Shown here one piece after another: positions 42,180 through 60,561 of a stretch of DNA of 64,000 nucleotides. Under the pieces are notes generated by a model. That model searched no databases and was not told the origin of the DNA. It saw only the letters and a program-made list of their open reading frames with translations. The stretch covers positions 6,213,001-6,277,000 of the forward strand of contig NZ_CP150265.1 in NCBI RefSeq assembly GCF_037976325.1, written 5' to 3'. Position 1 is the first letter of the stretch. Every line of letters starts with the position of its first letter. A program made the position numbers and the translations under genes. This DNA comes from Paenibacillus sp. FSL K6-3182 (GTDB lineage Bacteria; Bacillota; Bacilli; Paenibacillales; Paenibacillaceae).

Positions 42180-42258
42180 ACTTGACCTCCTACAAAATAA
42201 TTTTTTTATATCAAAATGTGCATTCTTGGCACCCTTGATATTCAGCTCATGCCGTGCA

Positions 42259-43143: not shown

Positions 43144-43165
43144 GTTGCATCACTCCTTTCATCCC

Positions 43166-44146
43166 TTACCACAATCCTCGTTCTCCCAGCGCCTTAATGA
43201 TTCGGTTCACAGATACAATAAGTATGAGCGCAATCAGTGATTGGAATAAGCCTAATGCAGTTGTGTAACTGTACTGCAGGTTGACAATCCCCCTTGTGTA
43301 CACGAAGGTACTGATAACCTCAGCCACACTCGTTACCGCCGGATTCCGCAGTGCATAGACCTGCTCGAAACCAACGTCCATCATTTTGCCTACTTGCAAA
43401 ATAAGAAGAATCGCAATCGTACTGCGAATGCCTGGCAGTGTCACATGCCAGATCTGTCTTATTTTATTGGCGCCGTCAATTTTGGCCGCTTCATACAATG
43501 TTGGATCAATTGAGGCCATCGCAGCTAAGTAAAGAATCGTCCCAAATCCGGCTTCTTTCCAAATGCCCGACACAATGAACGTCACCGGCCACCATAGCTT
43601 ATCTGCCATAAAATAGATTGGCTCTATTCCAAATGCCTGCAATAAATAATTCACTATGCCTGTAGATGGCGATAACAGTGCAATAATGATGCTTCCGAGG
43701 ACAATCCACGAAATAAAATGAGGAATGTACAGCAAGTTTTGCAATGTTCGTTTGTACCACTCCACCCGAACTTCATTGAGCATGATTGCGAGCAGAATCG
43801 GAGCAGGAAACGCAAAGAGCAAGCTGTACAGGTTAAGCAGCAGCGTATTTTTCAATACGATATAAAACTCGCGACTAGCAAACAACTTCTCAAACTGCTG
43901 GAATCCTACCCAAGAGCTTCCCCAAATCCCATCGGATAATCGATAATTTTTGAAAGCAATGATTTCTCCAGCCATCGGTGCGTATTTAAATAGCAATAAA
44001 TAGATGGCTACTGGCACTAGCAGCATATAAAGAAATCGATTGCGTTTTAATTCCTTCCGCATGGATCTTATCCATCTCGAGCCTGCTCCTGCTTTCGGCA
44101 TTTTAGGCATGGGAGCTAGATCCGCTGACTGCGAATGTTGCTTCAA
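43166..44146 (-). CDS. sugar ABC transporter permease (LplB/YteP-like), TTG start
   Basis: 326 residues from the TTG at 44146, which lies 6 bases after AAGGGGG. The ATG eight codons upstream has no ribosome binding site, and the GGGGG site lies inside that longer frame. Six hydrophobic segments; EAA loop 'EAAKIDGANKIRQIWHVTLP'. First gene of a long operon (two permeases, binding protein, YtdP-like regulator, PL22-like, GH105, unknown, deacetylase) ending at 33378. Confidence 0.9.
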   Translation of the reverse strand: MKQHSQSADLAPMPKMPKAGAGSRWIRSMRKELKRNRFLYMLLVPVAIYLLLFKYAPMAGEIIAFKNYRLSDGIWGSSWVGFQQFEKLFASREFYIVLKNTLLLNLYSLLFAFPAPILLAIMLNEVRVEWYKRTLQNLLYIPHFISWIVLGSIIIALLSPSTGIVNYLLQAFGIEPIYFMADKLWWPVTFIVSGIWKEAGFGTILYLAAMASIDPTLYEAAKIDGANKIRQIWHVTLPGIRSTIAILLILQVGKMMDVGFEQVYALRNPAVTSVAEVISTFVYTRGIVNLQYSYTTALGLFQSLIALILIVSVNRIIKALGERGLW

Positions 44147-44234
44147 AGTAATCCCCCTTTCTTTTGGCATGTTATCATTCTGTTCAGCAACGCCTTGCCA
44201 ACTTAACGTAACATGTACAGCTGAATGCGGAAAT

Positions 44235-44565: not shown

Positions 44566-47500
44566 TTAAGACTTACTCAAATGATTAATTATTATTAGAA
44601 TGAACTGTGCTGCCTCTGCTCTCGTAGCATTAGATCTCGGATGGAACATATTATTCCCTTTTCCCTGCACGAGGCCCGCTTCATTTAGTGCTGCCACAGA
44701 AGGCATTGCCCAAATAGGTATGTCCTTGGAGTCCGCAAACTGAGCGTTCAGGTTTGTATCCTTATTCATGTCTAGCGCTCTTGCGACTAGTACGGTCATC
44801 TCCGCACGAGTTATAGGCGCATTCGGAGCAAATAAATCGAGACTGATGCCAGAAACAAAGCCCGCTTTCACAGCGGCTTGCACGCTTGCTGCATACCATG
44901 CATCCTCTTTTACATCCTTAAACATCTGCTCATCCTGAGAGGCTTCGAGGTTTAAAGCACGAACTAAGAGAGAAACAAATTCCGCACGTGTCGTATTGCC
45001 TGAAGGCATGAACATGGAATCATTCACACCGTTCACAATATGCTTAGCCGACAACACTTGAATCGTTCTTGAAGCCCAATGAGTAGTGAGCATATCGCTA
45101 AACGTCTTTTTGAATTCCAAAACTGCATATTTGCTCAAATGCTGAAGTTTAACTGTTAATGTTTTGGCACTGCTGTTTACCTTCCCACCTACATACTCCC
45201 AAACCTTAGTCAGCTCGTTATAGTAGTAAATCCCAAGAAGCTCCTCATCAACACCATTGGCATCATAGGGTAAAGTAATCTCTACACCGCCTTTTGCCCC
45301 TTTAACTTCAACCACGCTGCCGTCTTTCTTTTTTAACTTCATGCTAATTTCATATACCTGACCTGCAATCGTTATTTGTGCAGCTGCATTTAGGGAGGCG
45401 GTCCGAATGTCTCCCGATTCGGTCACTGGCTTAACCTCGACTTCAATTGCTGCCCCTGCCTCATTATTGATCTGCCCTTTCCAAGTAGTAAGCAGTTCTC
45501 GATCAACAGTAACAATTACCGAACCCGCCACTACGGATAAAGGATGATCTCCAATTTGCGCTAATGGAATCGATACGACGGATAGGTTATTGCCTAGCTT
45601 TACTATCGCTTTACCATTTTCTACTGACACTATGCTTCTAGCCGTATTTCCATTGCTTCCGCTAGAACCATTATTACCGCCATTACTGCTGTCTGTTGAA
45701 AAGTCTAATTGATCTAAATATTTGATTTGCCCTTTGGGTTCATTCCCATTAAAGCTCTGAATCCAATTCGGATCCGTAATAATCCAAAGCTTACCATCCC
45801 TAATTCCCCAAGCCTTTCCATCCGCCGAACTATAAAGCACCTGTGTCGTACTTGTCGCATTTGGATTAAGTACCTGTACCATTGTTCCATTCTCCAATAC
45901 CGTAAATTCATTCGTAAAATAGGCATCAATCTCCGGCAACGCTCCCAGGTTTTTACGGTAGCCCATATAGACGGTATTTCGTTTGCCAGCCTTTAGGCTT
46001 CCCTGAGCCATTAAATCTTCGCCGTACAGGGTTGTCGCTGGATCGTCCTCTAAGCTGACGACTAATACATTCGTAGCTATATTAGGATCAAAAGTAGGCA
46101 CAACCCATTTATTATCAAAGGTTTGAAGCGTGGCTCCGCCCCGATAATCATTACCTGGTAGCACGACATTCCGTCTATTCAACATCCACCAAGTCTCGCC
46201 AGCAGGATATACATAATAGACTTCTGGCAGATAGGTTTCAATATGTGCTAGCGAATCAGGAGCTAGAATCGCATCCTTGTATTCTTTGAGCCAATCGAAC
46301 TGGATCGGTTTCGCTGTATAATAAGCGTAAGATTCTTGGCATGATGTAAAGTAATCGCAATTAAAGAGAAAATCATAAATGCCTTTGCTCCCTGCCTCCA
46401 ATACCGAATCAAAATGATTAAACATCGTTTCTTTGTCCGGATAGCCCTTCTCGCCGGATTGATATTTACGTTCCATATTTTCGTCCAGCTGCGTTTCCGT
46501 CGTTAAAAACCATAAGGTTTGTGCCGATTGCTCGATTAGCGAAAAGGTATACCCGGATCGTTCTCTCACCAAGTATTCCGTATCGCCGTAAATTTCTCCC
46601 CCAACGCCCGCGAACCCTCCGGTCTGCTTGTCATTAATAAAGTATTTCCTTGTGGTGCCAGCGTGTTTGAACACGACGGGCACGTCAACGACACTATTTA
46701 TCGCATCTGCAAATTTCATTAAATAATCGTTATAGGAGCCCTCTCTGAAATCGACAAAATCATCCCATAAAATGCCGTGATAAGCATCCGCCGCATACGT
46801 GGAACCCGGGTTACCCTTGTCAACCAAATACAATTGGTTGTTCCACACAGCCGATCCTTCTCCCCGAACTATGGGCACTAAACGCGCCGCCGTTTCATAA
46901 GATTCAACGGGACTGCTCATTTTCCAAGCCTCATTTAGAGCATTCAATGTGGCGTATTTCTGCTTTAACCAATCCACAAATTGAGCACTGTAGATGGGAG
47001 AGTCGAACAGGTAACCCTCGTCGCTGTTGTATATTCCTGATTCGTTCGTAACCGGATCGACAAACAATCTAAAATTGGGGCCCAAGGTCACCTTGCCAAG
47101 CGTGTCTACCATACTATTGATAATTGAATCTCCTGCATCCCAGATATTCCTCAGAGTATGGCCAGAATACTTAACCTTAGGGGTAAAATAAACCGTATAG
47201 GACGCATTATTCGTACTCGGAAGAACAACATCTGCGTGAAGCTCAAGCGTAGCGGAATTCACCTTGCGAATAGCCTCTTCGCCGGATTGAATAACTTCGC
47301 CCGTAGCCGGATTCATGACCACATACAGCGCTGACAAAGCATCCACATAACCTGGAATTTGAAACGTTGGTACCGTTAAGGTCACTTCTCCGCTATCCAC
47401 GATATTCTCTTTCTTTAATACACCCGCTCCTTCATAGGCTCTCGGCATATAAGCAGAAAGGGTCAAACCTTGGGCTCCTTGAACCTGCAGACCGTAAGTA

Positions 47501-49671
47501 AATCCTTCCTGGTCTAAGTAATCCAGCATTTTCTGCCATGCCCATGCCGGAACCTCCATGACAGCCGTGTTGATATACATATCCATTGCGCCATGTGCCT
47601 TCATATATTGCAGTACTTCTACATCCTTATCCCAATTAGCTTTATTGGCTGCAGCATCTGTTTTGGAGTAAAAGAGCAAATAATCCGAAGTAAACATACC
47701 GCCGATCGGCACGAACGGTTTGCCATCCCAAATCATCGTATGCGACTGGTTAGCATACCAGAAATGAGATTGCCCCAGCTTCCCATCGGTAAAAGCACCG
47801 TGCGTTAAGGGCTTGTAATTCGTACTGGACGCAGCGACTGTTACTTCAACTTGCCCTGCTGTCACCTGCTCTGCTTTTAATTTGTGGAGTCCCCATTCCA
47901 CGGTATAGCTGTCGGCTGGCATTCCTTCCGGCAACGTAAAACTAAACTGTGCCTGGGTTTCCACATTGGCTTGGAGGGCCGACGTATTTATAGCACCTAG
48001 CTCGGCAACATACCAAAGCACTTCTCCTTTATAAAAGCTTAGATACCCCGTCGTATCGAAATCTACAGCTTGATTTAGTCGATAAGCAACCGTCCCGGCA
48101 AATGATCTTGTACTTGTATGGGTCGGCTGCAGCTGTAGGTTAAAGATCGTTGCCCCTAACACAGGTACCGCAGTGTTCGCATCTTCTTGTTCAATGTTCA
48201 AATTGCCTACTTTAACCGATTTCTCTCCATTAACTGCATTATCGTAATGACTATCGACAATGCCGGTACGGATTTCATTTTTTCCTTTTGGAGCATTAAA
48301 CGGGACCGTTAACTGGATCGTTTCCGTATGCTCCTCGCCAGCCGCCCAAGATGTTTTATTAAACTCTTTAACCGCTCGTGATACAACTTCTCCCTCATAA
48401 ACTAATTCAACGAAGAAGCTTAAGGTTGCATTGACTCGCGCTATGGCTTTATTCGTAACCGTAACTCCTACTTGCTCTTCACGATTCGCCAACGATTTAT
48501 CTAGCGTGCCTGTTACGTATTCATATTTAACGGCTGCCTTATCAAAAGGTTTAGTTATACCATTCGGCTGCCATCCCCAACCGACAGGTACAACGGCGAT
48601 TGCATCGATACCTTGATTATATAAGCCATCGCTTGCTCCTTGCCTTGGCGTATTGGTTAAAAACGCTAGGTTATGCTGTCCTTTGCTCAGCTCTGCGCTG
48701 CTTAATTTATGCCAGTAGAAGGGCATACCTTCAGCCACAAATATGGAACCCTCCGTCATAACAGGCGGGGTTGCATTGGAACCTTCGTCCAGCTTCCAGC
48801 TCCAAGGGGACATCCAAATGCTTATGCCAGTTGCTAACACCCAGATGTCGTAGCTTCCTGTTTGAGGTATATCCACTTGATACTCCGCAGTTGCCGCGGT
48901 AGCCGGCGTATTGGTTTGAAGCAAGAGATAGGTGCCACCGCTTGCCAGTGAATCAGCCGTTCCATGATAACCTCCCTGTACAGAATCAGTATTTTCTCCT
49001 TCTGTCCATGAGTACCCTTCTTCCACTGGCTGTTCAGGTATAACGGGAGCTGCCGGTTTATTCAAACCATTCGGATGCCATTCCCAGTCAACAGGTACGA
49101 TGGCAATGGCATCGATCCCTTGATTATATAAACTATCGTTTGCCCCTTGCCGAGGAGCGTTCGTTAAAAATGCTAGATTATGCTGTCCTTGAGTCAGTTC
49201 GGTACTATCTAGTTTATGCCAATAAAAGGGCATGCCCTCTGAAACGAAGATCGCCCCTTCCGTAACTACGGGAGGTGCATTATACGAGCCCTCGTCCAGC
49301 TTCCAGCTATACGCAGACATCCAAAGACTCATGCCGGTCGCCAGCACCCATATATCGTAGTTTCCTGTTTCAGGGATATCTACTTCATACTCTGCAGTCG
49401 CAGATGTGCCTGGCGTATTCGTATGCAAGGCGAGGAACTTTCCTCCGCTTGCTTGCGATTCATCGTTCCGATAATATCCCCCTGGAGAAACAGATAAATA
49501 GTCTTCCCCTTCTGTCCACAAGTAAGCGTCTGCCTCTGAGGTACCATCCCTTAAAGTGTTCTCGTCAGATGCTGCCCCATTCGATATAACCGGTAAGCTT
49601 GAAAATAATAAGAGGAAGACAATCGTCCATGTCATCCCCTTTTTTAAAGCTTTAAACCTCTTGCTCCTCAT
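44566..49671 (-). CDS. 1701-residue secreted SLH-anchored GH-A-clan-like enzyme with tandem N-terminal modules
   Basis: Signal peptide ~1-34. Two near-identical ~150-residue beta modules at ~50-199 and ~219-367, probably carbohydrate-binding. Beta-rich linker domains to ~620. A TIM-barrel-like region at ~630-1130 is reminiscent of GH42: 'NSDEGY' with E885 as acid/base candidate, followed by 'FVDWLKQKYATLNALNEAW', and E1059 in 'WFLTTETQ' as nucleophile candidate. A Ser/Gly/Asn linker at ~1327-1343, then three SLH repeats at ~1523-1690 that hold the protein on the cell wall. The catalytic assignment is by local resemblance only; the family may be undescribed. Its promoter shares an operator and a cre-like site with the binding-protein gene at 57004. 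Confidence 0.85.
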   Translation of the reverse strand: MRSKRFKALKKGMTWTIVFLLLFSSLPVISNGAASDENTLRDGTSEADAYLWTEGEDYLSVSPGGYYRNDESQASGGKFLALHTNTPGTSATAEYEVDIPETGNYDIWVLATGMSLWMSAYSWKLDEGSYNAPPVVTEGAIFVSEGMPFYWHKLDSTELTQGQHNLAFLTNAPRQGANDSLYNQGIDAIAIVPVDWEWHPNGLNKPAAPVIPEQPVEEGYSWTEGENTDSVQGGYHGTADSLASGGTYLLLQTNTPATAATAEYQVDIPQTGSYDIWVLATGISIWMSPWSWKLDEGSNATPPVMTEGSIFVAEGMPFYWHKLSSAELSKGQHNLAFLTNTPRQGASDGLYNQGIDAIAVVPVGWGWQPNGITKPFDKAAVKYEYVTGTLDKSLANREEQVGVTVTNKAIARVNATLSFFVELVYEGEVVSRAVKEFNKTSWAAGEEHTETIQLTVPFNAPKGKNEIRTGIVDSHYDNAVNGEKSVKVGNLNIEQEDANTAVPVLGATIFNLQLQPTHTSTRSFAGTVAYRLNQAVDFDTTGYLSFYKGEVLWYVAELGAINTSALQANVETQAQFSFTLPEGMPADSYTVEWGLHKLKAEQVTAGQVEVTVAASSTNYKPLTHGAFTDGKLGQSHFWYANQSHTMIWDGKPFVPIGGMFTSDYLLFYSKTDAAANKANWDKDVEVLQYMKAHGAMDMYINTAVMEVPAWAWQKMLDYLDQEGFTYGLQVQGAQGLTLSAYMPRAYEGAGVLKKENIVDSGEVTLTVPTFQIPGYVDALSALYVVMNPATGEVIQSGEEAIRKVNSATLELHADVVLPSTNNASYTVYFTPKVKYSGHTLRNIWDAGDSIINSMVDTLGKVTLGPNFRLFVDPVTNESGIYNSDEGYLFDSPIYSAQFVDWLKQKYATLNALNEAWKMSSPVESYETAARLVPIVRGEGSAVWNNQLYLVDKGNPGSTYAADAYHGILWDDFVDFREGSYNDYLMKFADAINSVVDVPVVFKHAGTTRKYFINDKQTGGFAGVGGEIYGDTEYLVRERSGYTFSLIEQSAQTLWFLTTETQLDENMERKYQSGEKGYPDKETMFNHFDSVLEAGSKGIYDFLFNCDYFTSCQESYAYYTAKPIQFDWLKEYKDAILAPDSLAHIETYLPEVYYVYPAGETWWMLNRRNVVLPGNDYRGGATLQTFDNKWVVPTFDPNIATNVLVVSLEDDPATTLYGEDLMAQGSLKAGKRNTVYMGYRKNLGALPEIDAYFTNEFTVLENGTMVQVLNPNATSTTQVLYSSADGKAWGIRDGKLWIITDPNWIQSFNGNEPKGQIKYLDQLDFSTDSSNGGNNGSSGSNGNTARSIVSVENGKAIVKLGNNLSVVSIPLAQIGDHPLSVVAGSVIVTVDRELLTTWKGQINNEAGAAIEVEVKPVTESGDIRTASLNAAAQITIAGQVYEISMKLKKKDGSVVEVKGAKGGVEITLPYDANGVDEELLGIYYYNELTKVWEYVGGKVNSSAKTLTVKLQHLSKYAVLEFKKTFSDMLTTHWASRTIQVLSAKHIVNGVNDSMFMPSGNTTRAEFVSLLVRALNLEASQDEQMFKDVKEDAWYAASVQAAVKAGFVSGISLDLFAPNAPITRAEMTVLVARALDMNKDTNLNAQFADSKDIPIWAMPSVAALNEAGLVQGKGNNMFHPRSNATRAEAAQFILIIINHLSKS

Positions 49672-49693: not shown

Positions 49694-49707
49694 TTAAAGC
49701 GCTTACA
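49694..49707 (-). promoter_or_regulatory. cre-like (CcpA) site upstream of the giant SLH gene
   Basis: Reverse strand TGTAAGCGCTTTAA fits the catabolite-response consensus TGNAANCGNWNNCA except at one end position. It overlaps a predicted -10, TAATGT (49705-49710), that lies 17 bases from TTGACT (49728-49733), so CcpA binding would block the promoter. A cre-like site sits at the same distance (23 bases) from the start at 57004. Confidence 0.6.
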
Positions 49708-49737
49708 TTAATGATGATATGATGTCGAGTCAATACG

Positions 49738-49783
49738 GTAAATGGAGTATTCGAAAGTCGCAGGGGGAATATTTCACATTCGG
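49738..49783 (-). promoter_or_regulatory. twin operator 3 (copy A)
   Basis: A 46-base sequence identical at 37 positions to 57071-57116. Shared blocks are GTAAATGG, GAAAGT, AGGGG and AATATTTCACA. AAAT/GAAT-type half-sites recur 22 bases apart on the transcribed strand. It lies 67 bases from the SLH start and overlaps the last codons of the upstream hydrolase. Confidence 0.7.
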
Positions 49784-50820
49784 AGCGCTTGGCAAAACCA
49801 CTCCATTGCTCTATCGTTTATGTCCAGCTCATGAGCTCCATCAAATACTTCTCTCGACAATCGGTGCATGATATTCAACTGCCCATAAAGCTCAGCTAGT
49901 TTGTCCAGCTCTTTACGCGCATGCGCATAGTGGAACAGTTCATCCTTTTTGCCCACCTCAATATGCAGAAATCGTGGACAAATTAATCCAGCTACTTCTG
50001 CATCTAGAAACGTATTGCCAGCATTAAACCAAGTAAAATCAAACCAATCATACTTAAAGCGATCGTTGAAAAAACACGATGAGTACACTGCCTTAATACG
50101 AGTATCCGCTGCTGCTGTAAAGAGGGTATAAAACCCGCCATAAGATAAACCGATCATACCGACTTGGTCAGCGGCGATATCATTCCGTGATAATAAATAA
50201 TCCAGGCTCCGCTGAATTTTATAGATTTCCACCGCAGCAATCGAGCTGCCTACCTGCTTTAATTGTCTATCGATAGACAGTCTGTCATACGGAGAACCAT
50301 ATTCCCCTTCCTTCCAGAGCAGGAGCTGTGGCGCAAATACAGCGATGCTCCTTTGGAGTACTCTCCGCGTCATATCATGATAGTTCGTGGGACCATATAA
50401 ACCGGAACATAACTCCGGCGTGCCTTCTCCTCCATGCTGTGAGATCACGAGAGGAAAAGGCCCCTCCGACAGCGGCAGAAATAACAGGCCATACGTCGTC
50501 AGACCATATCCCCCTTCAACGATAACCCTATAAATTTTGCTTAAACGATCCTGGGCAACAAATTCAACCCGAGCATTAGGAATGGATGAATCAAGTGCGG
50601 GATCACTCAGCGGCCAACCTAGCATCGCTTTGAATTTCTCTCGATAGGGTTCTAGCTCCGCTTCAAATGCATCTATCGATGAGGTGTCCGGACGAAAGAA
50701 CTCCGCCCGATTCTGATCCCCGGCTGCACGCATACGCTCGATGAAGAGCTCGTATTCAAGCTTTTGTTCCTCACGATACCGGTTGCCGATATTTGGAGCT
50801 TCTACATATAAGTCGTCCAT
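49774..50820 (-). CDS. alpha/beta-hydrolase fold esterase-like protein
   Basis: 348 residues from ATG 50820 (GGGGTGA 8 bases upstream; a GTG four codons earlier is rejected). Serine-hydrolase triad visible: S226 in 'GLSYGG', D293 in 'VGKKDELF', H330 in 'DGAHELD'. The oxyanion region is 'ISQHGGEG'. No signal peptide. The large lid-containing layout resembles acetyl-xylan-esterase/dienelactone-hydrolase-like proteins. It starts 4 bases after the MDR dehydrogenase stop, at the end of the operon from 57004. It may remove acyl groups from an imported glycan. Confidence 0.85.
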   Translation of the reverse strand: MDDLYVEAPNIGNRYREEQKLEYELFIERMRAAGDQNRAEFFRPDTSSIDAFEAELEPYREKFKAMLGWPLSDPALDSSIPNARVEFVAQDRLSKIYRVIVEGGYGLTTYGLLFLPLSEGPFPLVISQHGGEGTPELCSGLYGPTNYHDMTRRVLQRSIAVFAPQLLLWKEGEYGSPYDRLSIDRQLKQVGSSIAAVEIYKIQRSLDYLLSRNDIAADQVGMIGLSYGGFYTLFTAAADTRIKAVYSSCFFNDRFKYDWFDFTWFNAGNTFLDAEVAGLICPRFLHIEVGKKDELFHYAHARKELDKLAELYGQLNIMHRLSREVFDGAHELDINDRAMEWFCQALRM

Positions 50821-50824
50821 AGAA

Positions 50825-51817
50825 TCACTCACCCCAGTTCAAAACCACACCCAAACAGGGTTGATTTTTATCCAGGATGAGCTTCCATGCTTCTACTGCT
50901 TGATCCGCCGGAAACTGATGCGTAATGAGTGTTTCTGTCTGAAGCCAGCCCTCTTCTATCCCGCGAATCGTCTCATTCATTCTTTGATTATCCCAGCCCG
51001 AGGGATTGTGAAGAGTAACTTCCTTCTCCCGTAGAGATTGTATATCAATTCTGCCATCCGTCCCTAGGAACCCCGCTGAAACCAGATGTCCATTATGACG
51101 CAGGTAGGGAAGACATTCGTAGACCGCCGTGAGCGAGCCTACCGTATCAACAATAATGGAGAGATCGGGATACAGCGAAGAAAGCTGCTCGCTTACGTCG
51201 TTCTTGGAAGTGTTCATCGCGACTGCTTTATCCGGAAGCAGCGCTAACCGATTCTCATGTCGACCCAGCACGGTAACCTTTGCCCCCCTGTGGATTAAGG
51301 TTTGAGCTGCCCATTGGCCGACAAGACCGTCGCCAATGACAATGGCCTTATCCCCTTCCTTCACCGGTGGCCGAGAGCCGCAATTATAGCCAACTTGTGT
51401 AAGCACAAGCCCGGCAAACGCCACAGGGCTCATCCCATCTGGAATTTTCCATACTTGGCTAACATCCGTTACTGCAGGGCTGACATGGCCTCCCTCGTTG
51501 AATGCCATCCCCTTTACTTTGCTTACCGTGGCAAATACGCGCTCACCTGCTTGAAAGCCCTCCACCTGATCACCCAACGCTCTAATTTTACCGACCTTTT
51601 GATAGCCGTTGATCTGTGGAAAAGGCAAAGCATCACCTTCTATGTAAGGGACTTCTCCCGCAATTCGCTCACCCTTAAGGAAGGAAGATTCCGTTCCAAT
51701 ACTAATCCAAGAATGCTCCACGTCGATGACGATATCACGACTCTCTAGCTCAGGAACGGTTACCTCTTGATATTCAACCTTGCCTTTATCAACGAATACT
51801 ACACCATAGCCTTTCAT
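50825..51817 (-). CDS. MDR-family dehydrogenase lacking obvious zinc ligands
   Basis: 330 residues. GroES-like N-terminal domain and Rossmann domain with 'AIVIGDGLVGQWAAQTLIHRG'. The usual catalytic Cys and 'GHE' motif are replaced ('WISIGTESSFLKG', 'INGYQKVG'), similar to BchC-like zinc-independent members. It is likely an NAD(P)-dependent sugar or sugar-alcohol dehydrogenase acting in the cytoplasm. Followed by the hydrolase (3-4 bases) and preceded by a second MDR gene 31 bases away. Confidence 0.87.
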   Translation of the reverse strand: MKGYGVVFVDKGKVEYQEVTVPELESRDIVIDVEHSWISIGTESSFLKGERIAGEVPYIEGDALPFPQINGYQKVGKIRALGDQVEGFQAGERVFATVSKVKGMAFNEGGHVSPAVTDVSQVWKIPDGMSPVAFAGLVLTQVGYNCGSRPPVKEGDKAIVIGDGLVGQWAAQTLIHRGAKVTVLGRHENRLALLPDKAVAMNTSKNDVSEQLSSLYPDLSIIVDTVGSLTAVYECLPYLRHNGHLVSAGFLGTDGRIDIQSLREKEVTLHNPSGWDNQRMNETIRGIEEGWLQTETLITHQFPADQAVEAWKLILDKNQPCLGVVLNWGE

Positions 51818-51848
51818 TGCCAGATCCCCTCCGCCTTGTATATTGGAC

Positions 51849-52802
51849 TTAAATATCGAAATCGGTTTGTGGATAAAAATATACCTTAATCGCTTCCTGC
51901 TTATTTAATAAATCAACGGCTTCCTGATACCGATCAAACGTACAATGATGAGTTTGCAAACATTCCATGTTTAATTTCTTATTTCCCACCAGGTCGATTA
52001 GCAGCTCATGATCCCTTGGACCAACATTGCGGTATTTATAAGATTCCAGCTTCATTCCCTTGTACCATAGATGTTCCGGATACTTCACTTCTCCGCGAAG
52101 AACACCAAATATAACGATATGTTCATCTACGTACTCAATCAGATTTTGCACAGAAGCGGCCGCCCCGACACAATCGTAGCCTAAATCGAATTGTTGACCC
52201 TGCAGATCATCGACAAGGCAAGTCTCGCCAAGTCCAAGCTCTCGAACCTGTCGTACTCGCGTTTCATTAATATCTACTCCGATAACACGTGAAGCCCCCC
52301 ATAGGCGCGCCACCTGAATGGCCAGCATTCCCGCAGGTCCAAGACCGGACACGACGATAGATTTACCCCGCAGATCGCCAAATTGCATGATTCCAATTAC
52401 TACACATTTCAATAGTTCAAGCGATACTGCTTGTTTATCAGAGATATGATCTGGCAGTTTGATGAGCTCCTCTTCACGGAAGCATAAATACTGCGCATAA
52501 GCCCCATTACCATCCAAATGCTCAAGGGCAGCCACACGGTCCCCCACATTCAGCGTACGCACGCTTTTTCCCACCGATTTGACTACACCAGCCAGCTCAT
52601 GTCCCGGAAACCCCGGGGGTAATGGGTAATCCGGAGATTCATTATAATTAAACATATTGCGGCCAGCCATCATGTTCATATCCCAGCGAGGACAAGTCGA
52701 CACCAGCCTTATCTCTACCAATACCTGATCATCAAAAGGTACCGGAATTTCATATTCTAAGATGGTATACGTATTCGCTCCTGTAATTTGCAAAGCTTTC
52801 AT
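51849..52802 (-). CDS. zinc-dependent alcohol dehydrogenase (MDR family)
   Basis: 317 residues. Catalytic zinc ligands C37 ('VSTCPRWD') and H68-E69 ('GFPGHELAG'); cofactor motif 'VVSGLGPAGMLAIQVARLWG', with D after beta-2 ('IGVDINE') suggesting NAD. The four-Cys structural zinc lobe appears absent. It is paired with a zinc-less MDR paralogue, which suggests successive oxidation/reduction of one sugar hydroxyl, such as an epimerisation through a keto intermediate (inference). Confidence 0.9.
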   Translation of the reverse strand: MKALQITGANTYTILEYEIPVPFDDQVLVEIRLVSTCPRWDMNMMAGRNMFNYNESPDYPLPPGFPGHELAGVVKSVGKSVRTLNVGDRVAALEHLDGNGAYAQYLCFREEELIKLPDHISDKQAVSLELLKCVVIGIMQFGDLRGKSIVVSGLGPAGMLAIQVARLWGASRVIGVDINETRVRQVRELGLGETCLVDDLQGQQFDLGYDCVGAAASVQNLIEYVDEHIVIFGVLRGEVKYPEHLWYKGMKLESYKYRNVGPRDHELLIDLVGNKKLNMECLQTHHCTFDRYQEAVDLLNKQEAIKVYFYPQTDFDI

Positions 52803-52811
52803 AAGACAGCA

Positions 52812-53822
52812 TCACCCTTCTATTAGATGTTCGAATGCCTGATAATAAAGCCAATGCCCATAATCATTCGGATGATTAATATTGTTGAGCAGAAGGCTCT
52901 CTGGCGTTTTTCCTGCTCGTAATTCTTGTTTCCAAATCTCATTCACATCTGCAACGCCGATATCATATTCCTTCCCTAAGCGACGAAGAACTTCAGCGTA
53001 TCCATCCATCAGCCCACTCGTATATTTCCACAAGGGATTTGGCTCGCAAGGCGTAACAAGCATAATATCTGTTTCACAGCTCCGCATCGTAGATTCTATA
53101 ATCGTTCGAATATTACTCTCGTAAATAGCATAAGGCACAGCTACTTCGCCATCGAAAATATTCTGATCATTCATCCCGTAGCCTATTGTCAGCAAATCCG
53201 GCTTATTAGACACAATATCCTGCTCTATGCGGGCTGCGCCTCCCGTGCTTGTTTCTCCTCCTATTGCTTTATTAACAACACGAAGGTTTCCACCCGAGCT
53301 TATAGCAGATAGCCGATGCGCAAAACGTTGATAAAAAGTATAGCTATCCTCACTTGCCTCTCCGCCTTCGCTAATGCTGTCACCAAAAACCACATAAACA
53401 GCTTCTTGTCCGGCATTAAGCTTTTTCATCGTGTTTTTTAATAAAGGACTAGCCCCTATGCTCAATCCGGCATTTAATTGATGTTGATGTTGCTCCCTCT
53501 CATATTCGTAGTCTATAAATACAGTGAAACTGCGATTACTGTATTCCTCAAACAACTGATGATCGAAGTTCAGGTTTTGAAAGAATACATGGTCAGCCCA
53601 ATCCCGTATGCTGCTTGCCACCGTTCTTGCAATCAGCCCAGTTTCATAATCAACAATAAAATCCTTTCCTTCTTTATAACTAACCGACTCCACATGCTCG
53701 GAATTCGTATGTGTTCTTAAGCTCAAGCTTCCTTTGACGATCGGGTGGAATCGCAGCTGCTGCTGTTCTTGCCCCACAAAAACGAGTGACTCCGCTGTTT
53801 GTTTCACGTTATGCACTGACAT
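52812..53822 (-). CDS. SGNH/GDSL hydrolase (probable carbohydrate esterase)
   Basis: 336 residues. An N-terminal ~130-residue beta-domain precedes the SGNH core. Block I S149 in 'VVFGDSISEGG', block II G189 in 'AIGGETS', block III N218 in 'YGMND', block V H317 in 'NINHPND'. The two-domain layout resembles acetyl esterases acting on oligosaccharides. No signal peptide, so it probably deacylates imported sugar in the cytoplasm. It lies between the permeases and the dehydrogenases of the same operon. Confidence 0.88.
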   Translation of the reverse strand: MSVHNVKQTAESLVFVGQEQQQLRFHPIVKGSLSLRTHTNSEHVESVSYKEGKDFIVDYETGLIARTVASSIRDWADHVFFQNLNFDHQLFEEYSNRSFTVFIDYEYEREQHQHQLNAGLSIGASPLLKNTMKKLNAGQEAVYVVFGDSISEGGEASEDSYTFYQRFAHRLSAISSGGNLRVVNKAIGGETSTGGAARIEQDIVSNKPDLLTIGYGMNDQNIFDGEVAVPYAIYESNIRTIIESTMRSCETDIMLVTPCEPNPLWKYTSGLMDGYAEVLRRLGKEYDIGVADVNEIWKQELRAGKTPESLLLNNINHPNDYGHWLYYQAFEHLIEG

Positions 53823-53844
53823 TTAGCAAACCTCACTCTCCCAT

Positions 53845-54663
53845 TTAACTTTTCACTGCCCCTGCCGTTAAGCCTTCAACGATGTACTTTTGCAAGAATA
53901 GATACAATAGAATGACCGGCACGGATACCATAACCAAGTCAGCAAAAACCAGATTCCAATCCGAGGAATGCTGACCAAAGAAAAAGTATACGGTCAAGCT
54001 TAAGGTGAAGCGGCTCGCCGTATTTAAGAAATAAAACGGGGTAGTGAAGTCATTCCATACCGACATAAATGCTATAATTAGGACGCTGGCGCTTACCGGC
54101 TTCAGCAATGGGAAAATAATCTTCCAAAACAAGCCGTAAGGGCTAACTCCGTCAATCATTGCGGCTTCATCCAATTCTCTTGGAATGCTATGAAAAAAAC
54201 CGATGTATACGTAGGTTAGAAAAGCATAATTCCCAGCAATATAAAGCAAAATCACTCCTAAATAAGTACGAACCAGATGCAAATCAAACATCAGCATATA
54301 CGTCGTAATAATGGAGGAAGGCAATATTAAGCCGGCAATAATAACCGTTTGCAGCAGCCTGCTCACCCGGTTATCTCTCCGTTGAATGAAATAAGCGGAC
54401 AGTGAACAGAAAATAACGATAAAGAATACACTAATGACGGTTAAAATCGTTGTATTCCATAATGCCTGTGGAATCTTGGCATTTACGAACACATCTGAAT
54501 AGTTATGCCATAGGTTCCATTTCGTCGGGAAGGATAATCCTAAATCTGAAGCCTCCGCCTGTGTTTTGAAGGAGTTCACAACGACCAAGTAGATAGGAAT
54601 GGCGATGATACAGCTAATGAACACAGATAGAGCTTCCCATAATGTTTTACGCAATACTCGCAT
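53845..54663 (-). CDS. carbohydrate ABC transporter permease (MalG/UgpE type)
   Basis: 272 residues from ATG 54663, 8 bases after AGAGGG; a GTG three codons earlier overlaps the upstream stop. Six hydrophobic segments; EAA loop 'EAAMIDGVSPYGLFWKIIFP'; C-terminus 'KYIVEGLTAGAVKS'. It pairs with the MalF-type permease directly upstream and belongs to a different permease subgroup from the YtcP/LplB pairs elsewhere in the window. Confidence 0.92.
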   Translation of the reverse strand: MRVLRKTLWEALSVFISCIIAIPIYLVVVNSFKTQAEASDLGLSFPTKWNLWHNYSDVFVNAKIPQALWNTTILTVISVFFIVIFCSLSAYFIQRRDNRVSRLLQTVIIAGLILPSSIITTYMLMFDLHLVRTYLGVILLYIAGNYAFLTYVYIGFFHSIPRELDEAAMIDGVSPYGLFWKIIFPLLKPVSASVLIIAFMSVWNDFTTPFYFLNTASRFTLSLTVYFFFGQHSSDWNLVFADLVMVSVPVILLYLFLQKYIVEGLTAGAVKS

Positions 54664-54668
54664 TCCAC

Positions 54669-55538
54669 TCACCCTCTGTTGTCTTTATTTAGATATTTGT
54701 TCGTTATGGATACAAGGACGAGAATGATCACAAACAATAACAAGCTAGCGGCAGTCGCTTCCCCATTTCTTCCTTGCGAGAAACTTTTGTAGATCATTGT
54801 GTTAATTACGCTAGAAGCATTCCCTGGACCGCCTCCAGTAAGCGCATAAACAATATCGAATACTTTTAATCCGCCAATGAGCGAAATAATAATGTTGGTA
54901 TTCACAACGGGGAGAATCATCGGGAATATAATATGCCTCTTCTGCTCCCAATTTGTTGCTCCGTCAATCTTGGCGGCTTCAATCATCTCTTTCGGAATGG
55001 TCTGAAGTGCTGCCAGAAACAAGATGACCGTTAATCCCGTCCACTTCCATATTTCAACAAAGGAAATGGAATACATCACGATATGGCTATTTGTAAGCCA
55101 TTGTTGGGTTAGAAAACCAAGCTGAAGTTTCTCCAATAACACATTGATAAATCCGCGGCTTGGATGATATAGAGCTGTAAATGCCAGTGATACAGCAATC
55201 GGGCTTAAGATAACGGGAAAGAAAAGGGCAGAGCGCAAGAAGTTTGTCGTTTTTAACTTTTGATTTACAAAGTTAGCTAATATAAATCCAAGTCCGACTT
55301 TACCGACTGTGGTGACCACTGTGAATATAAACGTATTTTTGAATGCAATGGAATTGCTCGAATCATCAAATAGGGAAATGAAATTTTCAAACCCAACGAG
55401 CCGCGTGTAATGAAAGGTAGCGTCTAAATTGGTGAAGGCATAGAAAAAATTAGAAATGGCTGGCCACACGAAAAAGATTAAAAAGATACAAAGACCTGGA
55501 GCTAACATAGAGTACCTGTAGTAATGACGCTTCAGCAT
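54669..55538 (-). CDS. sugar ABC transporter permease (MalF/UgpA type)
   Basis: 289 residues; ATG 55538 after TTGGAGGGCAACTAA. Six hydrophobic segments; EAA loop 'EAAKIDGATNWEQKRHIIFP'; 'ALTGGGPGNAS' typical of CUT1 permeases. It follows the binding-protein gene, with an 89-base gap containing a hairpin plus U run that could lower permease expression relative to the binding protein. Confidence 0.92.
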   Translation of the reverse strand: MLKRHYYRYSMLAPGLCIFLIFFVWPAISNFFYAFTNLDATFHYTRLVGFENFISLFDDSSNSIAFKNTFIFTVVTTVGKVGLGFILANFVNQKLKTTNFLRSALFFPVILSPIAVSLAFTALYHPSRGFINVLLEKLQLGFLTQQWLTNSHIVMYSISFVEIWKWTGLTVILFLAALQTIPKEMIEAAKIDGATNWEQKRHIIFPMILPVVNTNIIISLIGGLKVFDIVYALTGGGPGNASSVINTMIYKSFSQGRNGEATAASLLLFVIILVLVSITNKYLNKDNRG

Positions 55539-55551
55539 TTAGTTGCCCTCC

Positions 55552-55590
55552 AAAAAAGAGAGAGGGTTTCTTTATTTCAGAAACACTCTC
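55552..55590 (-). terminator. intra-operon hairpin (partial terminator) between binding protein and permeases
   Basis: Reverse-strand stem of 11 positions with one mismatch (55560-55570 with 55580-55590), a 9-base loop, then six U after a short CUCUC stretch. It lies just before the permease ribosome binding site, a common arrangement for making more binding protein than channel. Confidence 0.6.
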
Positions 55591-55627
55591 CAAATTTGCT
55601 TTTCCTATCGACTATTTCTAGCAAGCT

Positions 55628-57004
55628 TTACTTGAAGTTTGGATCATCCTTGGCTTTGGCGTTCTTCACTAATTCTTTCTGTTCCGCTTCTTGCACCTGC
55701 TCAGGAGTTTTCGCGCCTGCTACTAAATCCTGAAGGAAGGCTGGATAATCCCCGTAGCCATACGCTGGAATGCCATTGCTAGGATTAACGCCGGTTGGAC
55801 CCGCTTTTCCTTCCTCGCTAAACTTCTGTGCATCCAGCTCGGCAGGTGTCAGAAGTGTATTGGTAACTCCCTTGATGGCTGGTATGCCGCCCTCTGCACC
55901 GAAATAAATATTTTGAGTCTCAACGGATTCAAAGTAGTTGACGAACTTTTGAGCCGCCTCTTGATTGCTTCCTTTCACGACATACATGGCGTTTGGCGGA
56001 TATACTCCTGCAACATCCTTGCCCTCGCCATTGAAAGGAATAAGGAACGCTCCAATATCCTTCGTTTGCTCAGGGTATTTGGCCGCAATATCGGTCATGA
56101 CCCATGTAGCCATTGGATACATAGCTGCATCCCCATTGGCCAATGCTTTCTGTGCATTATCGTAAGTATCCGATAAATAATCTTTGTTAACATACTTCTT
56201 ATTTACAACTTCTTCCAGAAAGGTCATACCCTGTCTTTTGGCATCAAAATTAGCAAATGTAGCTTTATTAGAAAACACTTTGTTTGTTATTTCTTGAAGA
56301 TCAACCTGCGCCGCACCGGACTGATGGGTTGGAATTTGCAAAGTCCAAGCATCTTTGGCGGACAAGTACACCGGCACTTTGCCTGCCTTGCTTATCACTT
56401 CAGAAGCAGCCCAGAACTCATCCATCGTCGTTGGAATTTGCAAGTTCAAGCCCTCAAACACCTTTTTGTTATACAGCATGACAGCCAAATTAGATCCACC
56501 GTAAGGAGCCGCGTAAAAGGTTCCAGCCGAGTCGAATGCACCTGTCCAAACCTTCTTGTCGAAGTTAGCCATCCAAGGCTGATCCTCCTGCGAGACGAAC
56601 TGCTCTTCCGGTTTTCCTAACCCGTAGCCCTCATTCACGCCTCCATAGAAGAACAACAAATCTGGCTTATCGTTTGTTGCAAACCGCGTTTTGATTAAAT
56701 TATCCCCATCTGCACCCTCAGGAAGTTTCTCAATCTCCAAAGTGATTCCGGCTTTCTCTGCAGAGTCCTTCAGAACCGCTTCCATTCCGCCTTTCAACCA
56801 ACTCGTGTGCATAAGTGCCTTTAAAGTAATCTTTTCTATCGGTGCTGATGGTGATGCACTTTCTGTAGTTGGAGCAGCAGTGCTCTCCGATGGCGTATTC
56901 GTTGCATTACCGTTATTCTTCGCTCCTGCACAAGCTGCTAAAACAAGCATGGTAAGAACCATTACCATCCATAACAGCGTTCTCTTTGTGGTGAGACCCC
57001 TCAT
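55628..57004 (-). CDS. extracellular sugar-binding lipoprotein (CUT1 family)
   Basis: 458 residues. The ATG at 57004 is 7 bases after GGAGG; the ATG two codons earlier touches the site. Lipobox LAAC, then a Thr/Ser/Pro/Ala-rich linker. MsmE/CycB-type blocks 'LFFYGGVNEGYGLG' and 'ALANGDAAMYPMATWVMTD'. First gene of the operon binding protein, permeases, SGNH, MDR, MDR, hydrolase. Its promoter has a cre-like site and twin operator 3, shared with the giant SLH enzyme, which probably releases its ligand outside the cell. Confidence 0.92.
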   Translation of the reverse strand: MRGLTTKRTLLWMVMVLTMLVLAACAGAKNNGNATNTPSESTAAPTTESASPSAPIEKITLKALMHTSWLKGGMEAVLKDSAEKAGITLEIEKLPEGADGDNLIKTRFATNDKPDLLFFYGGVNEGYGLGKPEEQFVSQEDQPWMANFDKKVWTGAFDSAGTFYAAPYGGSNLAVMLYNKKVFEGLNLQIPTTMDEFWAASEVISKAGKVPVYLSAKDAWTLQIPTHQSGAAQVDLQEITNKVFSNKATFANFDAKRQGMTFLEEVVNKKYVNKDYLSDTYDNAQKALANGDAAMYPMATWVMTDIAAKYPEQTKDIGAFLIPFNGEGKDVAGVYPPNAMYVVKGSNQEAAQKFVNYFESVETQNIYFGAEGGIPAIKGVTNTLLTPAELDAQKFSEEGKAGPTGVNPSNGIPAYGYGDYPAFLQDLVAGAKTPEQVQEAEQKELVKNAKAKDDPNFK

Positions 57005-57026
57005 GTTCATTCCTCCAAGTTTGTGA

Positions 57027-57040
57027 TGTAAATGCTTACA
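57027..57040 (-). promoter_or_regulatory. cre-like site upstream of the binding-protein gene
   Basis: TGTAAATGCTTACA (forward), a near-perfect palindrome; on the reverse strand TGTAAGCATTTACA matches the cre consensus except for A in place of the central G. It lies 23 bases from the start at 57004, the same offset as the cre-like site of the SLH gene. Confidence 0.5.
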
Positions 57041-57070
57041 AAACCAATGTTATGTTTTTTGCTTCTTATC

Positions 57071-57116
57071 GTAAATGGCGAATTTGAAAGTACTAGGGGA
57101 AATATTTCACACTGGG
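57071..57116 (-). promoter_or_regulatory. twin operator 3 (copy B)
   Basis: 46-base match (37 identical) to 49738-49783. The distance from the cre-like GCTTACA to the operator is 37 bases in both copies, and the distance to the start codon is 67 bases in both. It lies between divergent binding-protein and kinase genes, so it could serve both. The regulator at 59008-60561 is the probable binder. Confidence 0.7.
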
Positions 57117-57161
57117 CAAGGCTGCATTTTTAATGTGTTATACTGAACGGGGAGGTCGTCT

Positions 57162-58967
57162 ATGCTGTCTTTCAAAAATTTACAAACGAAATTATATGTG
57201 ACTTATTCGCTTGTCCTCATCGTCATTGCACTCATTATCAGCACTCCGATGTATGTATATTTGAAAAATAATATTGAAACCAATTTAAAAGAAAATGTGG
57301 ACAAGCTTGTAAGCGGTTACTCCAATGCTCTAGATGTTTATTCCACCATTAATAACAACGTAACCACCCAGCTATATATTAATCGTGACAATTCCAGCTA
57401 TACTGCCGTCCAATATTTAAGCTCTATCGCCTATCTCAAAAATACGAGTCCCACCGAAACGTTACAGTCCGAAAAGGCCATTCAAAACTCCCTTTACTTG
57501 AATGCTGCCGTCTATCAAACGATTCATAGGATTAATTTGTTTACGTCAAAAGGTGATTTCTACTCAACTAACGAAGCTGACGTAGATATTATGCAAACCA
57601 TCCTTGCGAATGATGGATTTAAGAATGTTCAAGCTGCGAAGGGCTCTTCCTTATTGAATTTTTCGGAGAAGGACAGATGGCTATCCCGAGATTCCGAAGC
57701 CGTCTTTTCATTTCTGCGTCAGATCAGCTGGGACTCGCATCCCGTTGGTTTTCTTGAAATCCAATTCAAAGCCTCCGATTTATTGCATGTAGAGGAATTA
57801 GATTCGAAGCAGGATAAACAAATTATGATTGTACAAGCGGGCCAGGTTCTTTATTCGTCTACACCTCCCTCATCCAACAAACTAGCCTCTATCCTTAAGC
57901 TGGTTGGCAATGGGAATGCAGGGAACGGGTTCATGACTAATGAACAGGGAATAGATGATTTTTTCATGTACCAGACCTCTGAGAAAACAGGCATAACGAT
58001 TGTAGCCATTATTCCAAAGTCGCAACTTTTTGCGCCATTGCTCTTATTTCGTAATGTCACGATCATAAGCGTTCTACTCCTTATTGCGATCTCGGTTTTT
58101 GTTTACTTTATTCTCGCCAAAATTTTAACGCATCCTCTTAAAAAGCTAAAAAAAGCGATTGATTCTATTAATTTAGGTGAGACCAATCAAGCCTTTATTG
58201 AAAATAAATTTCATATGGGTGAAATCGAAATTATTAACCGTTCCTTTCTAGCCTTGAACCAGCGTTTACAAGATAGTCTTGAGGAGACTGTTCAATTCCG
58301 AACCTTGCAAATGCAAGCTAAATTCGATGTGCTTCAAGCTCATATCAATCCTCATTTTTTATTTAATATGTTAGGTGTCATTACCGTTTTATCAGATAGA
58401 GGCCAGCAAAAGGCTGTATCGGACACAAGTAGAAAACTTTCTCAATTCTTACGATATTCGATTTCTTCCGGCTCGTCGATCACAACCGTAAGTGAGGAGC
58501 TAGAATTCGCACAGCATTATTTGGATCTATTAAAATCTCGCTATCAACACCGGCTACATTATGATATAGAAGTTCCTGAATGGCTTCTAAATATTCAAAT
58601 TCCCAAATTAATGATTCAGCCTATTATAGAAAACGCCATTCATCATGGTTTATCGGATAGCGATAAGCAATTGAAAATTCAAATTATCGGTAAAATAATC
58701 GGAAATAAGTGGGAGATACGAATCAGTGATAATGGTGTCGGGTTTGACCCTGCTTCTTTGGAAACGTTGAAGCACAACATTCAAGGCTATCTTGAACGCA
58801 TTCAAAATAATCAAACATTAAACGAGCCTATTTCAATTGGAGGAATGGGCCTAGTGAATACGATTGCTAGACTTCAGCTCATGTTCAAGGAGCAATATCA
58901 ATTCTCCTTCGGCAATAACGAGGATTGCGGAGCCTATGTATGTTTCCATGGCTACATCAAACTTTAA
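57162..58967 (+). CDS. sensor histidine kinase, YesM-type
   Basis: 601 residues; ATG after GGGGAGGTCGTCT. TM1 at ~12-33, an extracellular domain to ~295, TM2 at ~298-319, HAMP ~320-375. H398 in 'QAHINPHFLFNMLGVITVL'; ATPase N-box 'PIIENAIHHG' and 'ISDNGVGFDP'. Divergent from the binding-protein operon; the regulator gene starts 40 bases after its stop. It senses a sugar-derived signal outside the cell and phosphorylates that regulator. Confidence 0.94.
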   Translation: MLSFKNLQTKLYVTYSLVLIVIALIISTPMYVYLKNNIETNLKENVDKLVSGYSNALDVYSTINNNVTTQLYINRDNSSYTAVQYLSSIAYLKNTSPTETLQSEKAIQNSLYLNAAVYQTIHRINLFTSKGDFYSTNEADVDIMQTILANDGFKNVQAAKGSSLLNFSEKDRWLSRDSEAVFSFLRQISWDSHPVGFLEIQFKASDLLHVEELDSKQDKQIMIVQAGQVLYSSTPPSSNKLASILKLVGNGNAGNGFMTNEQGIDDFFMYQTSEKTGITIVAIIPKSQLFAPLLLFRNVTIISVLLLIAISVFVYFILAKILTHPLKKLKKAIDSINLGETNQAFIENKFHMGEIEIINRSFLALNQRLQDSLEETVQFRTLQMQAKFDVLQAHINPHFLFNMLGVITVLSDRGQQKAVSDTSRKLSQFLRYSISSGSSITTVSEELEFAQHYLDLLKSRYQHRLHYDIEVPEWLLNIQIPKLMIQPIIENAIHHGLSDSDKQLKIQIIGKIIGNKWEIRISDNGVGFDPASLETLKHNIQGYLERIQNNQTLNEPISIGGMGLVNTIARLQLMFKEQYQFSFGNNEDCGAYVCFHGYIKL

Positions 58968-59007: not shown

Positions 59008-60561
59008 ATGAGGATTATGATTGTTGATGATGAACCCTTCTACATGGATCATCTTAAAGAAGTAATTGAAAACAGCGACTTTAGCAAAAGAGAGCAGACC
59101 CAGATTGTCGCCCAATGTATTAGCGCTAGTCAGGCACTGGAAGCCATACCGACCGTTCAACCCCATTTAATCTTTACCGACATCAAGATGCAGCTCATGA
59201 ACGGGATCGAGTTTGCAGCCATCATTCGGCAAAATTGGCCTCATATCATCGTCGTAATCGTGAGCGGTTACTCTTCCTTTGAATATGCCCGGGATGCCAT
59301 TCGGGCCAATGTGGAGGACTACCTCGTCAAGCCGGTTGATCCTACAATCATTGAACAATTATTAGATAAGACGAATACACGCATTAGCTTGGATACCTAT
59401 CTTCAGCAGCAATCTTTATTAAATGAATTGCTCGAAAACAAGAGTATAGAGGGAAGTATCCAAACCACTTTACATAAGTGCTTTCCATTCTCTAGCTATT
59501 ATGTGTTTTGCTTTAATAAGCCTACATTTTCACAAGATAAAGCTCGTTGTCCCACTCTGACGGAGCAAGAAATCCAAAACAAACTATCTTCGAATCCTTT
59601 ATTGCTAAAGAACGAGAAGGCTTGGATCGTTTCAAGAAATGATTTCAAAAGGGGATTTATTATCCTCGGATTATATCAATGCGGCGACCAGCGGATTAAA
59701 CAACTTGCTGAGGAAATTGTTCTGATGATCGGCGGTTCAGGCAGTCACCCTTCCATCGCCGTTAGCCAAAGCTTTAACGATATTAGACAGTTTCACCAGG
59801 TTGCAAACCATCTTCACGATGAGCTGTACCATCAACTGGTCATTGGACAATCCAAGACAATCTTTTTATCTGAGCAACAACCCGCTTTAGAAAAACTCAA
59901 TCTGCTCCTAAGCAGCATCGATGAGAAGAAAATTGTTATTGCGGTGGATAAAAAGGATTGGAAGCTGTTAAAAAAAATGATCTTCCATTGGTTTGAGCAG
60001 TGGGAAGAGCACTCCTGTCCGAACCTCTATTTACAAAGAAATGGCAAGCAAATGGTTCAATGGTTAGAAAAGCATTTCCGCACATTAGAACCCCTCACAA
60101 GTATTTCAACGGAGAAAGAAATGGAGGAAATCATTAAATCCGCCTACTCCTATTCAAATGCTGCTGAGGATATCTGGAACTTGCTATCGCATATTTTCCG
60201 ATTTGAAGACCATGACCCCGCCAGTAACAAAGGAGTCCGATTAATTGAACAAATCTCCGACTATTTATCCGCAAATTTGAGCGAAACGATTTCAATGACT
60301 CATATTATGGATCGATTTCAAATTTCGAGCACCCATTTAGGAAATCTATTTCGCAAGCATCATGGAGAAACCTTTGTCGAATATTTAACTACTCTCCGCA
60401 TTAACAAAGCGAAGGAGCTCATGCGAATTCATCCAGAGATGCCTCTAAAAGAAATTTCTGAAATTACAGGTTATACAGATCGGCACTATTTCACCAAAGT
60501 ATTTAAGCTCGTTACAGGTAAATCCCCGACAGATTATAAAGATCAGCTCCTTCGGGAATAA
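59008..60561 (+). CDS. two-component response regulator, YesN-type (receiver + AraC HTH)
   Basis: 517 residues from ATG 59008 (GGAGG, 8-base spacer); the longer frame starts inside the kinase gene. Receiver at 1-120 with D7/D8, phospho-acceptor D58 in 'IFTDIKMQLMNG', K108 ('YLVKP'). C-terminal AraC domain has 'FQISSTHLGNLFRKHHGETF' and 'GYTDRHYFTKVFKLVTG'. Likely acts at twin operator 3, controlling the transport/esterase operon and the giant surface enzyme. No good forward terminator follows closely. Confidence 0.93.
   Translation: MRIMIVDDEPFYMDHLKEVIENSDFSKREQTQIVAQCISASQALEAIPTVQPHLIFTDIKMQLMNGIEFAAIIRQNWPHIIVVIVSGYSSFEYARDAIRANVEDYLVKPVDPTIIEQLLDKTNTRISLDTYLQQQSLLNELLENKSIEGSIQTTLHKCFPFSSYYVFCFNKPTFSQDKARCPTLTEQEIQNKLSSNPLLLKNEKAWIVSRNDFKRGFIILGLYQCGDQRIKQLAEEIVLMIGGSGSHPSIAVSQSFNDIRQFHQVANHLHDELYHQLVIGQSKTIFLSEQQPALEKLNLLLSSIDEKKIVIAVDKKDWKLLKKMIFHWFEQWEEHSCPNLYLQRNGKQMVQWLEKHFRTLEPLTSISTEKEMEEIIKSAYSYSNAAEDIWNLLSHIFRFEDHDPASNKGVRLIEQISDYLSANLSETISMTHIMDRFQISSTHLGNLFRKHHGETFVEYLTTLRINKAKELMRIHPEMPLKEISEITGYTDRHYFTKVFKLVTGKSPTDYKDQLLRE

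Follow-up and report, generated by a model that had tools for sequence, protein, structure and literature searches.

In the xylan system of Paenibacillus sp. JDR-2, the surface-layer homology (SLH)-anchored enzyme Xyn10A1 is accompanied by an aldouronate-utilization gene cluster (PMC4765114). The gene for the surface enzyme lies apart from the cluster holding the ATP-binding cassette (ABC) transporter and regulator genes, the two are coordinately regulated, and catabolite-responsive elements (cre) are predicted (PMC4765114). A similar arrangement is described here for a 64,000-nucleotide stretch of Paenibacillus sp. FSL K6-3182 (contig NZ_CP150265.1, positions 6,213,001 to 6,277,000), which we call the window and in which coordinates are given unless another locus is named. 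A 46-base site, termed the operator, stands upstream of a gene for a 1,701-residue SLH surface protein (44566 to 49671, reverse strand) and again upstream of a sugar ABC transporter operon, which begins with a sugar-binding protein gene (55628 to 57004, reverse strand). Adjoining that operon in divergent orientation are genes for a YesM-type sensor histidine kinase (57162 to 58967, forward strand) and a YesN-type response regulator (59008 to 60561, forward strand). We propose that this two-component system activates both promoters and thereby couples the surface enzyme to the uptake of its product, a reading to which we assign a probability of roughly 0.83.

The JDR-2 system differs in that its enzyme is a GH10 xylanase with a recognized catalytic domain and a known substrate, whereas the catalytic family of the present protein is uncertain. 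It also differs at the level of regulation: neither "AraC" nor "response regulator" occurs in the main text of the JDR-2 report, and hence no shared activator site is named there for JDR-2 (PMC4765114), whereas a shared site is identified here. AraC-type two-component regulators are described in the more distant host Caldicellulosiruptor bescii, namely, AviRS, MosSQ, and BxgRS; the predicted targets of AviRS, a transporter and a secreted enzyme (celD), belong to one gene cluster (PMC8579813). The sites of the AraC-type two-component systems in that organism are tandem repeats; in three of five cases they stand upstream of promoters, a position in which they were read as activator sites (PMC8579813). 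Those systems resemble the present one in having a local kinase and regulator pair beside a CUT1 transporter; the term "SLH" is absent from the main text of that report (PMC8579813). In Clostridium cellulolyticum, the XydS/R system has a regulator with a receiver and an AraC-type domain, and the upstream regions of two separate loci are bound by its effector domain; the targets are genes for CBM6 proteins instead of an enzyme and a transporter, and the system is reported not to regulate its own genes (PMC3572039). Literature searches found no description of the present cluster among the papers listed. By analogy with these examples, it probably belongs to the known kind of two-component system that governs enzymes and transporters, here with a predicted regulon of two promoters.

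A 46-base site present twice in the genome

The two operator copies, read on the reverse strand from 49783 to 49738 and from 57116 to 57071, are identical at 37 of 46 positions. This degree of identity, given in the original prediction for this DNA, was confirmed by direct comparison and by shuffling: none of 2,000 dinucleotide-shuffled pairs of 200-bp promoters reached 37 identities, the maximum being 30. Elsewhere in the window, on both strands, no ungapped alignment exceeded 26/46 for the first copy or 25/46 for the second. Copy 1 lies upstream of the SLH gene, where it overlaps the final 10 bases of the 49774 to 50832 open reading frame, and copy 2 lies in the intergenic region that separates the divergent binding-protein and kinase genes. 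Each is 67 bases from a start codon, at 49671 and 57004, respectively, just as had been predicted.

The genome was searched as a single contig of 7,559,925 bases. At three or fewer mismatches there were two matches to the operator pattern and none to a reversed control pattern. The original prediction had named a matrix scan of the genome as a check, and a profile made from ten promoters (described below) gave two strong sites, scoring 96.6 and 90.8 bits, with the next place at 14.7 bits (among the best 150 of 5,316 candidates). Both window sites are training members of that profile, and the informative part of the result is the score gap below them. The search of the 7.56 Mb turned up no clear third copy.

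Promoter layout around the operator

The inner end of the operator, CATTTAC, supplies the −35 box, TTTAC(C/G), in both promoters. The SLH gene promoter (49714 to 49742, reverse strand) reads TTTACC, 17 bases, TATCAT, its −35 box overlapping the operator end. That of the transporter operon (57047 to 57075, reverse strand) reads TTTACG, 17 bases, TAACAT and was not among the calls of a consensus scan. The promoter scan gave 16 promoter-like sites against a mean of 15.9 in shuffles, and the assignment of −35 and −10 boxes therefore rests on spacing across species. In nine of ten promoters aligned from four species, a −10-like hexamer stands 17 bases past the −35 box and a cre-like element 29 to 30 bases past the operator. 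The tenth, from Cohnella WQ 127256, lacks the cre-like element and has 2 extra bases ahead of the −10 region.

The cre-like elements of the window promoters are 14-mers on the reverse strand, TGTAAGCGCTTTAA at 49694 to 49707 before the SLH gene and TGTAAGCATTTACA at 57027 to 57040 before the transporter operon. Their predicted distance of 23 bases from the starts at 49671 and 57004 was borne out. The predicted 37-base gap between GCTTACA and the operator needed correction, being a start-to-start distance; in both promoters the gap is 30 bases, and the element lies after the −10 box. CcpA acts at cre-like sites. The SLH-type cre pattern occurs at two places in the genome, so that use by CcpA is not established.

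The operator may have a third client. Beside its outer end at copy 2 lies an extended −10 sequence of the kinase gene, TGTTATACT (57136 to 57144, forward strand), and in all five sequences compared, the extended −10 TGNTATACTG stands 26 bases from the outer CACAC of the operator. In Cohnella WQ 127256, the operator is still beside the kinase gene despite two genes lying between the kinase and binding-protein genes. The fixed spacing and this retained position suggest that the operator also serves the kinase gene, with possible autoregulation.

Conservation of the operator pair

Of the 394 genomes of the family that were searched, 5 carry the operator pattern at three or fewer mismatches, with no match to the reversed control among the matches listed. 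Two of the five represent one species, so that they amount to four species and not to five independent events. Mismatches below are counted relative to the operator search pattern. Paenibacillus sp. FSL A5-0031, which is labeled as the same species, has both sites unchanged over a 40-base core. In P. baekrokdamisoli, whose proteins are 67 to 89% identical to those of the window, one site precedes the binding-protein gene (2 mismatches) and one the SLH gene (1 mismatch), and these are the only two sites in that genome at three or fewer mismatches; a single GH38 gene takes the place of the variable gene cassette that follows the transporter genes in the window. Cohnella abietis carries a transporter-side site with 1 mismatch and an SLH-side site with 4, and a DUF6259 gene lies between its transporter and SLH genes. 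Retention of both copies before the same genes in P. baekrokdamisoli and C. abietis, at the same position relative to the −35 box, supports the original view of one activator site used twice, and coregulation of the SLH gene and the transporter operon is very likely.

The Cohnella WQ 127256 locus departs from this pattern. It lacks the SLH gene and has a site before the binding-protein gene (2 mismatches). An AraC-type regulator gene and a PhyH-type gene are inserted between the kinase and binding-protein genes (L064:15001-16913) and have an operator copy of their own.

The linked response regulator as the likely activator

The original prediction had singled out the product of 59008 to 60561 as the binder of both sites, and the distribution of its orthologs supports this: at an E value of 1e-110 or lower (67 to 100% identity), orthologs occur in exactly the same 5 of the 394 genomes that carry the operator. 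The protein is the response regulator partner of the kinase at 57162 to 58967. Binding-protein relatives at 52 to 58% identity were found in four other genomes (G018, G026, G032, and G047; 60 genomes searched), and among the 394 genomes neither a match to the 59008 regulator nor the operator was found in these four, which counts against mere linkage. The neighboring regulators aligned from loci of that sort are 28 to 37% identical overall. We therefore regard the 59008 regulator as the likely activator.

A different, unlinked regulator might own both sites, leaving the linked two-component system to control something else. There is no shortage of related regulators, as the 59008 protein gave 275 first-look candidates when compared with its own genome. 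The coincidence of operator and ortholog across genomes makes this alternative unlikely all the same, and the sole other candidate examined, the AraC-type regulator at 38167 to 40509, had no match at an E value of 1e-100 or lower in three of the four remaining genomes that have the operator and was rejected as the common activator.

Probable pairing of the SLH gene with the transporter operon

Gene order in related genomes points to the 57004-type transporter as the partner of the SLH protein. In six loci, a homolog of 2,043 to 2,062 residues directly follows genes for a binding protein and two permeases; these are in P. sinopodophylli, P. luteus, P. paridis, genome G032, a second P. baekrokdamisoli locus, and Cohnella WQ 127256. 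In four more loci, a cassette lies between, making 10 in which a transporter of this type adjoins the SLH gene or stands upstream in the same cluster. No homolog of the main part of the enzyme was found in the 14 to 20 kb fetched around five loci with related binding proteins (L015, L016, L017, L064, and L081). Coupling of enzyme and transporter is probable, and the specific claim that the SLH enzyme releases the sugar imported by the 57004 operon is made plausible by the six contiguous loci, in which the SLH gene comes straight after the transporter genes.

The partner could instead be the transporter encoded directly downstream of the SLH gene (40566 to 44170), beside the 38167 AraC-type regulator gene. 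The SLH gene does adjoin that cluster, and in genome G032 a 36% identical SLH paralog (L039:10833-15926) lies near permeases of the same type. The downstream neighbors of the SLH gene differ in P. baekrokdamisoli, however, and with the 57004-type transporter recurring in the 10 loci above, we consider this pairing improbable.

Neighboring genes hint at a substrate. A GH42 gene is present in all six contiguous loci (query, L012), GH78 genes occur in L012, L014, L038, and L046, and a GH38 gene occurs in P. baekrokdamisoli and L015. These families hint at galactose and rhamnose (GH42 and GH78) and also at mannose (GH38).

Age of the duplication

Two sites of one kind could also have arisen by recombination that duplicated a promoter module, the copies being retained by chance and sharing no activator. 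The two copies in Cohnella WQ 127256, identical over the 40-base core, look recently duplicated, and whole-core identity separates the SLH and transporter types imperfectly: the P. baekrokdamisoli SLH copy matches each window copy at 35 of 40 positions, and those of Cohnella WQ 127256 have bases in common with both. Against chance retention, 25 of the 40 core columns are invariant in the ten promoters, some of them outside the −35 box, and 5 more agree in nine of ten. Moreover, in each of the three species that carry both copies, two core positions and the cre-like element consistently tell the types apart; the duplication is thus probably older than these species, and unconstrained copies would have drifted. 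Chance retention is for these reasons very unlikely. That the sites are a dispersed repeat, an outcome named beforehand as fatal to the original prediction, is rejected by the genome scans, which found just two copies, both in promoters, and we give it next to no weight.

Sister systems with diverged sites

The promoter profile was also applied to the four further genomes that have the operator, the best 150 candidates per genome being scored. An extra match in Cohnella WQ 127256 (29.3 bits; E value, 4.2e-6) lies just before a second binding-protein gene that has its own kinase and regulator genes (L081:3365-3480). The binding protein, kinase, and regulator of this locus are 50%, 40%, and 34% identical, respectively, to their window counterparts. 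A 38-base partial match in P. baekrokdamisoli (18 bits) was inspected and led to nothing.

Across ten related loci (203 kb), the profile matched at two places, L081 (E value, 1.3e-7) and L017 (E value, 8e-4), both just before homologous binding-protein genes; L081 had been fetched owing to the earlier match and was then counted among the ten. No match was found in the other eight. The two matches suggest that the layout is common to at least some sister systems and that the site sequence drifts. By eye, the other sister loci appear to have an upstream block and ATTT before promoter-like spacing.

The SLH protein as a possible GH42-like enzyme

Three SLH stretches are the sole Pfam matches above the cutoff in the 1,701-residue protein, which gave no match to Pfam GH42 at an E value of 0.001 or lower and falls short of the cutoff of that family. 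Of five homologs scanned, the distant P0015 exceeded the GH42 cutoff (24.9 versus 21 bits), P0007 and P0016 matched below it, and P0008 and P0009 did not match. A profile of 15 homologs compared with the PDB gave beta-galactosidase chains, with an E value of 3.5e-5 at best and over short stretches, and a PDB search with the SLH protein itself returned S-layer entries and one beta-galactosidase at an E value of 0.26. Alignment with hhalign to the neighboring GH42 proteins had a probability of 25.7% over 32 columns only. Given this weak profile similarity, the region from about residue 620 to 1340 may be a divergent GH42-like glycosidase. The pair N876-E877, E1026, and E1059 are invariant in all 15 aligned rows and may supply the Asn-Glu acid/base and the second catalytic Glu expected of GH42. 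A search of 51 genomes with the whole protein matched in all 51, mostly via the SLH end, and was for that reason used only for matches in the catalytic region.

Other genes of the locus

Behind the binding-protein gene (SBP_bac_1), the 57004 operon encodes two ABC permeases on the reverse strand, at 54669 to 55538 (best NCBIfam match, UgpA-like) and 53845 to 54672 (GlcU/MalG-like). They are followed by the variable cassette (49774 to 53822, reverse strand), which comprises a GDSL esterase-like protein, two zinc dehydrogenases, and an alpha/beta hydrolase. The binding-protein gene has in-frame ATG codons at 57010, chosen by the open reading frame tool, and at 57004, which is better spaced from GGAGG. 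The best PDB match of its product is the chitin-oligosaccharide protein NagB2 (E value, 3.5e-13); other sugar-binding proteins score close behind, and the match therefore names no substrate. Within this gene, bins from 55750 to 56500 are 74 to 78% identical in DNA to FSL A5-0031, the flanking bins being mostly 92 to 100% identical. The ligand-binding protein has probably undergone an allele replacement (55750 to 56750).

The kinase matches His_kinase (PF06580; E value, 7.7e-22), and the response regulator combines a receiver (Response_reg; E value, 1.7e-21) with an AraC-type helix-turn-helix domain (HTH_18; E value, 1e-18). Just beyond the regulator gene, at 60725 to 63094, lies the gene for another SLH protein, which carries a GHL10-type glycosidase domain.

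Discussion

Several observations weigh against activation of both promoters by the linked two-component system. The site diverges quickly, as judged from the eight of ten related loci that the profile did not match. The second copy in Cohnella WQ 127256 precedes the AraC-PhyH pair instead of an SLH gene and is the one that has no cre-like element. Because operator and regulator are parts of one cluster, their co-occurrence is in part block inheritance. Finally, the half-site repeat is not clear-cut: the original prediction had half-sites recurring every 22 bases, and a repeat of the form TnnRAATWnnYCC does give some signal when the profile is shifted by that distance (0.57 over the best 12 columns), but the value for 19 bases is 0.59, which leaves the 22-base repeat no more than suggestive.

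On the reading that we favor, activation of both promoters by the YesMN-type system, the membrane kinase would sense a glycan fragment outside the cell. The phosphorylated response regulator would then bind both sites, with the inner half-site lying over the −35 box, and recruit RNA polymerase at the binding-protein and permease operon and at the SLH gene. Carbon catabolite repression, acting at the cre-like site just past each −10 box, could veto both promoters. The surface protein, possibly a GH42-like glycosidase, would release an oligosaccharide for import by the ABC transporter, and the second operator would keep the SLH gene coregulated despite the species-variable cassette that separates it from the transporter genes.

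A broader idea, on which we would not bet and which we offer tentatively, is that the operator-promoter module is a conserved plug-in, by which one two-component system switches on a surface glycosidase, an importer, and a swappable cassette (GH38, DUF6259, or esterase-dehydrogenase), and that the SLH proteins of 1,700 to 2,060 residues found an uncharacterized GH42-like family acting on a glycan that contains galactose, rhamnose, or mannose.

Pairing surface enzymes with importers is difficult in Paenibacillus, where dozens of both may be encoded in one genome; the JDR-2 genome has 77 genes for SLH proteins (PMC4765114). At this locus, a private DNA site that is present twice and kept with its likely regulator would pair one surface protein with one transporter and name the sensor. 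The sister systems, in addition, may offer a modest natural series in which YesN-type regulators and sites both diverge and which could be used to learn which residues read which bases.

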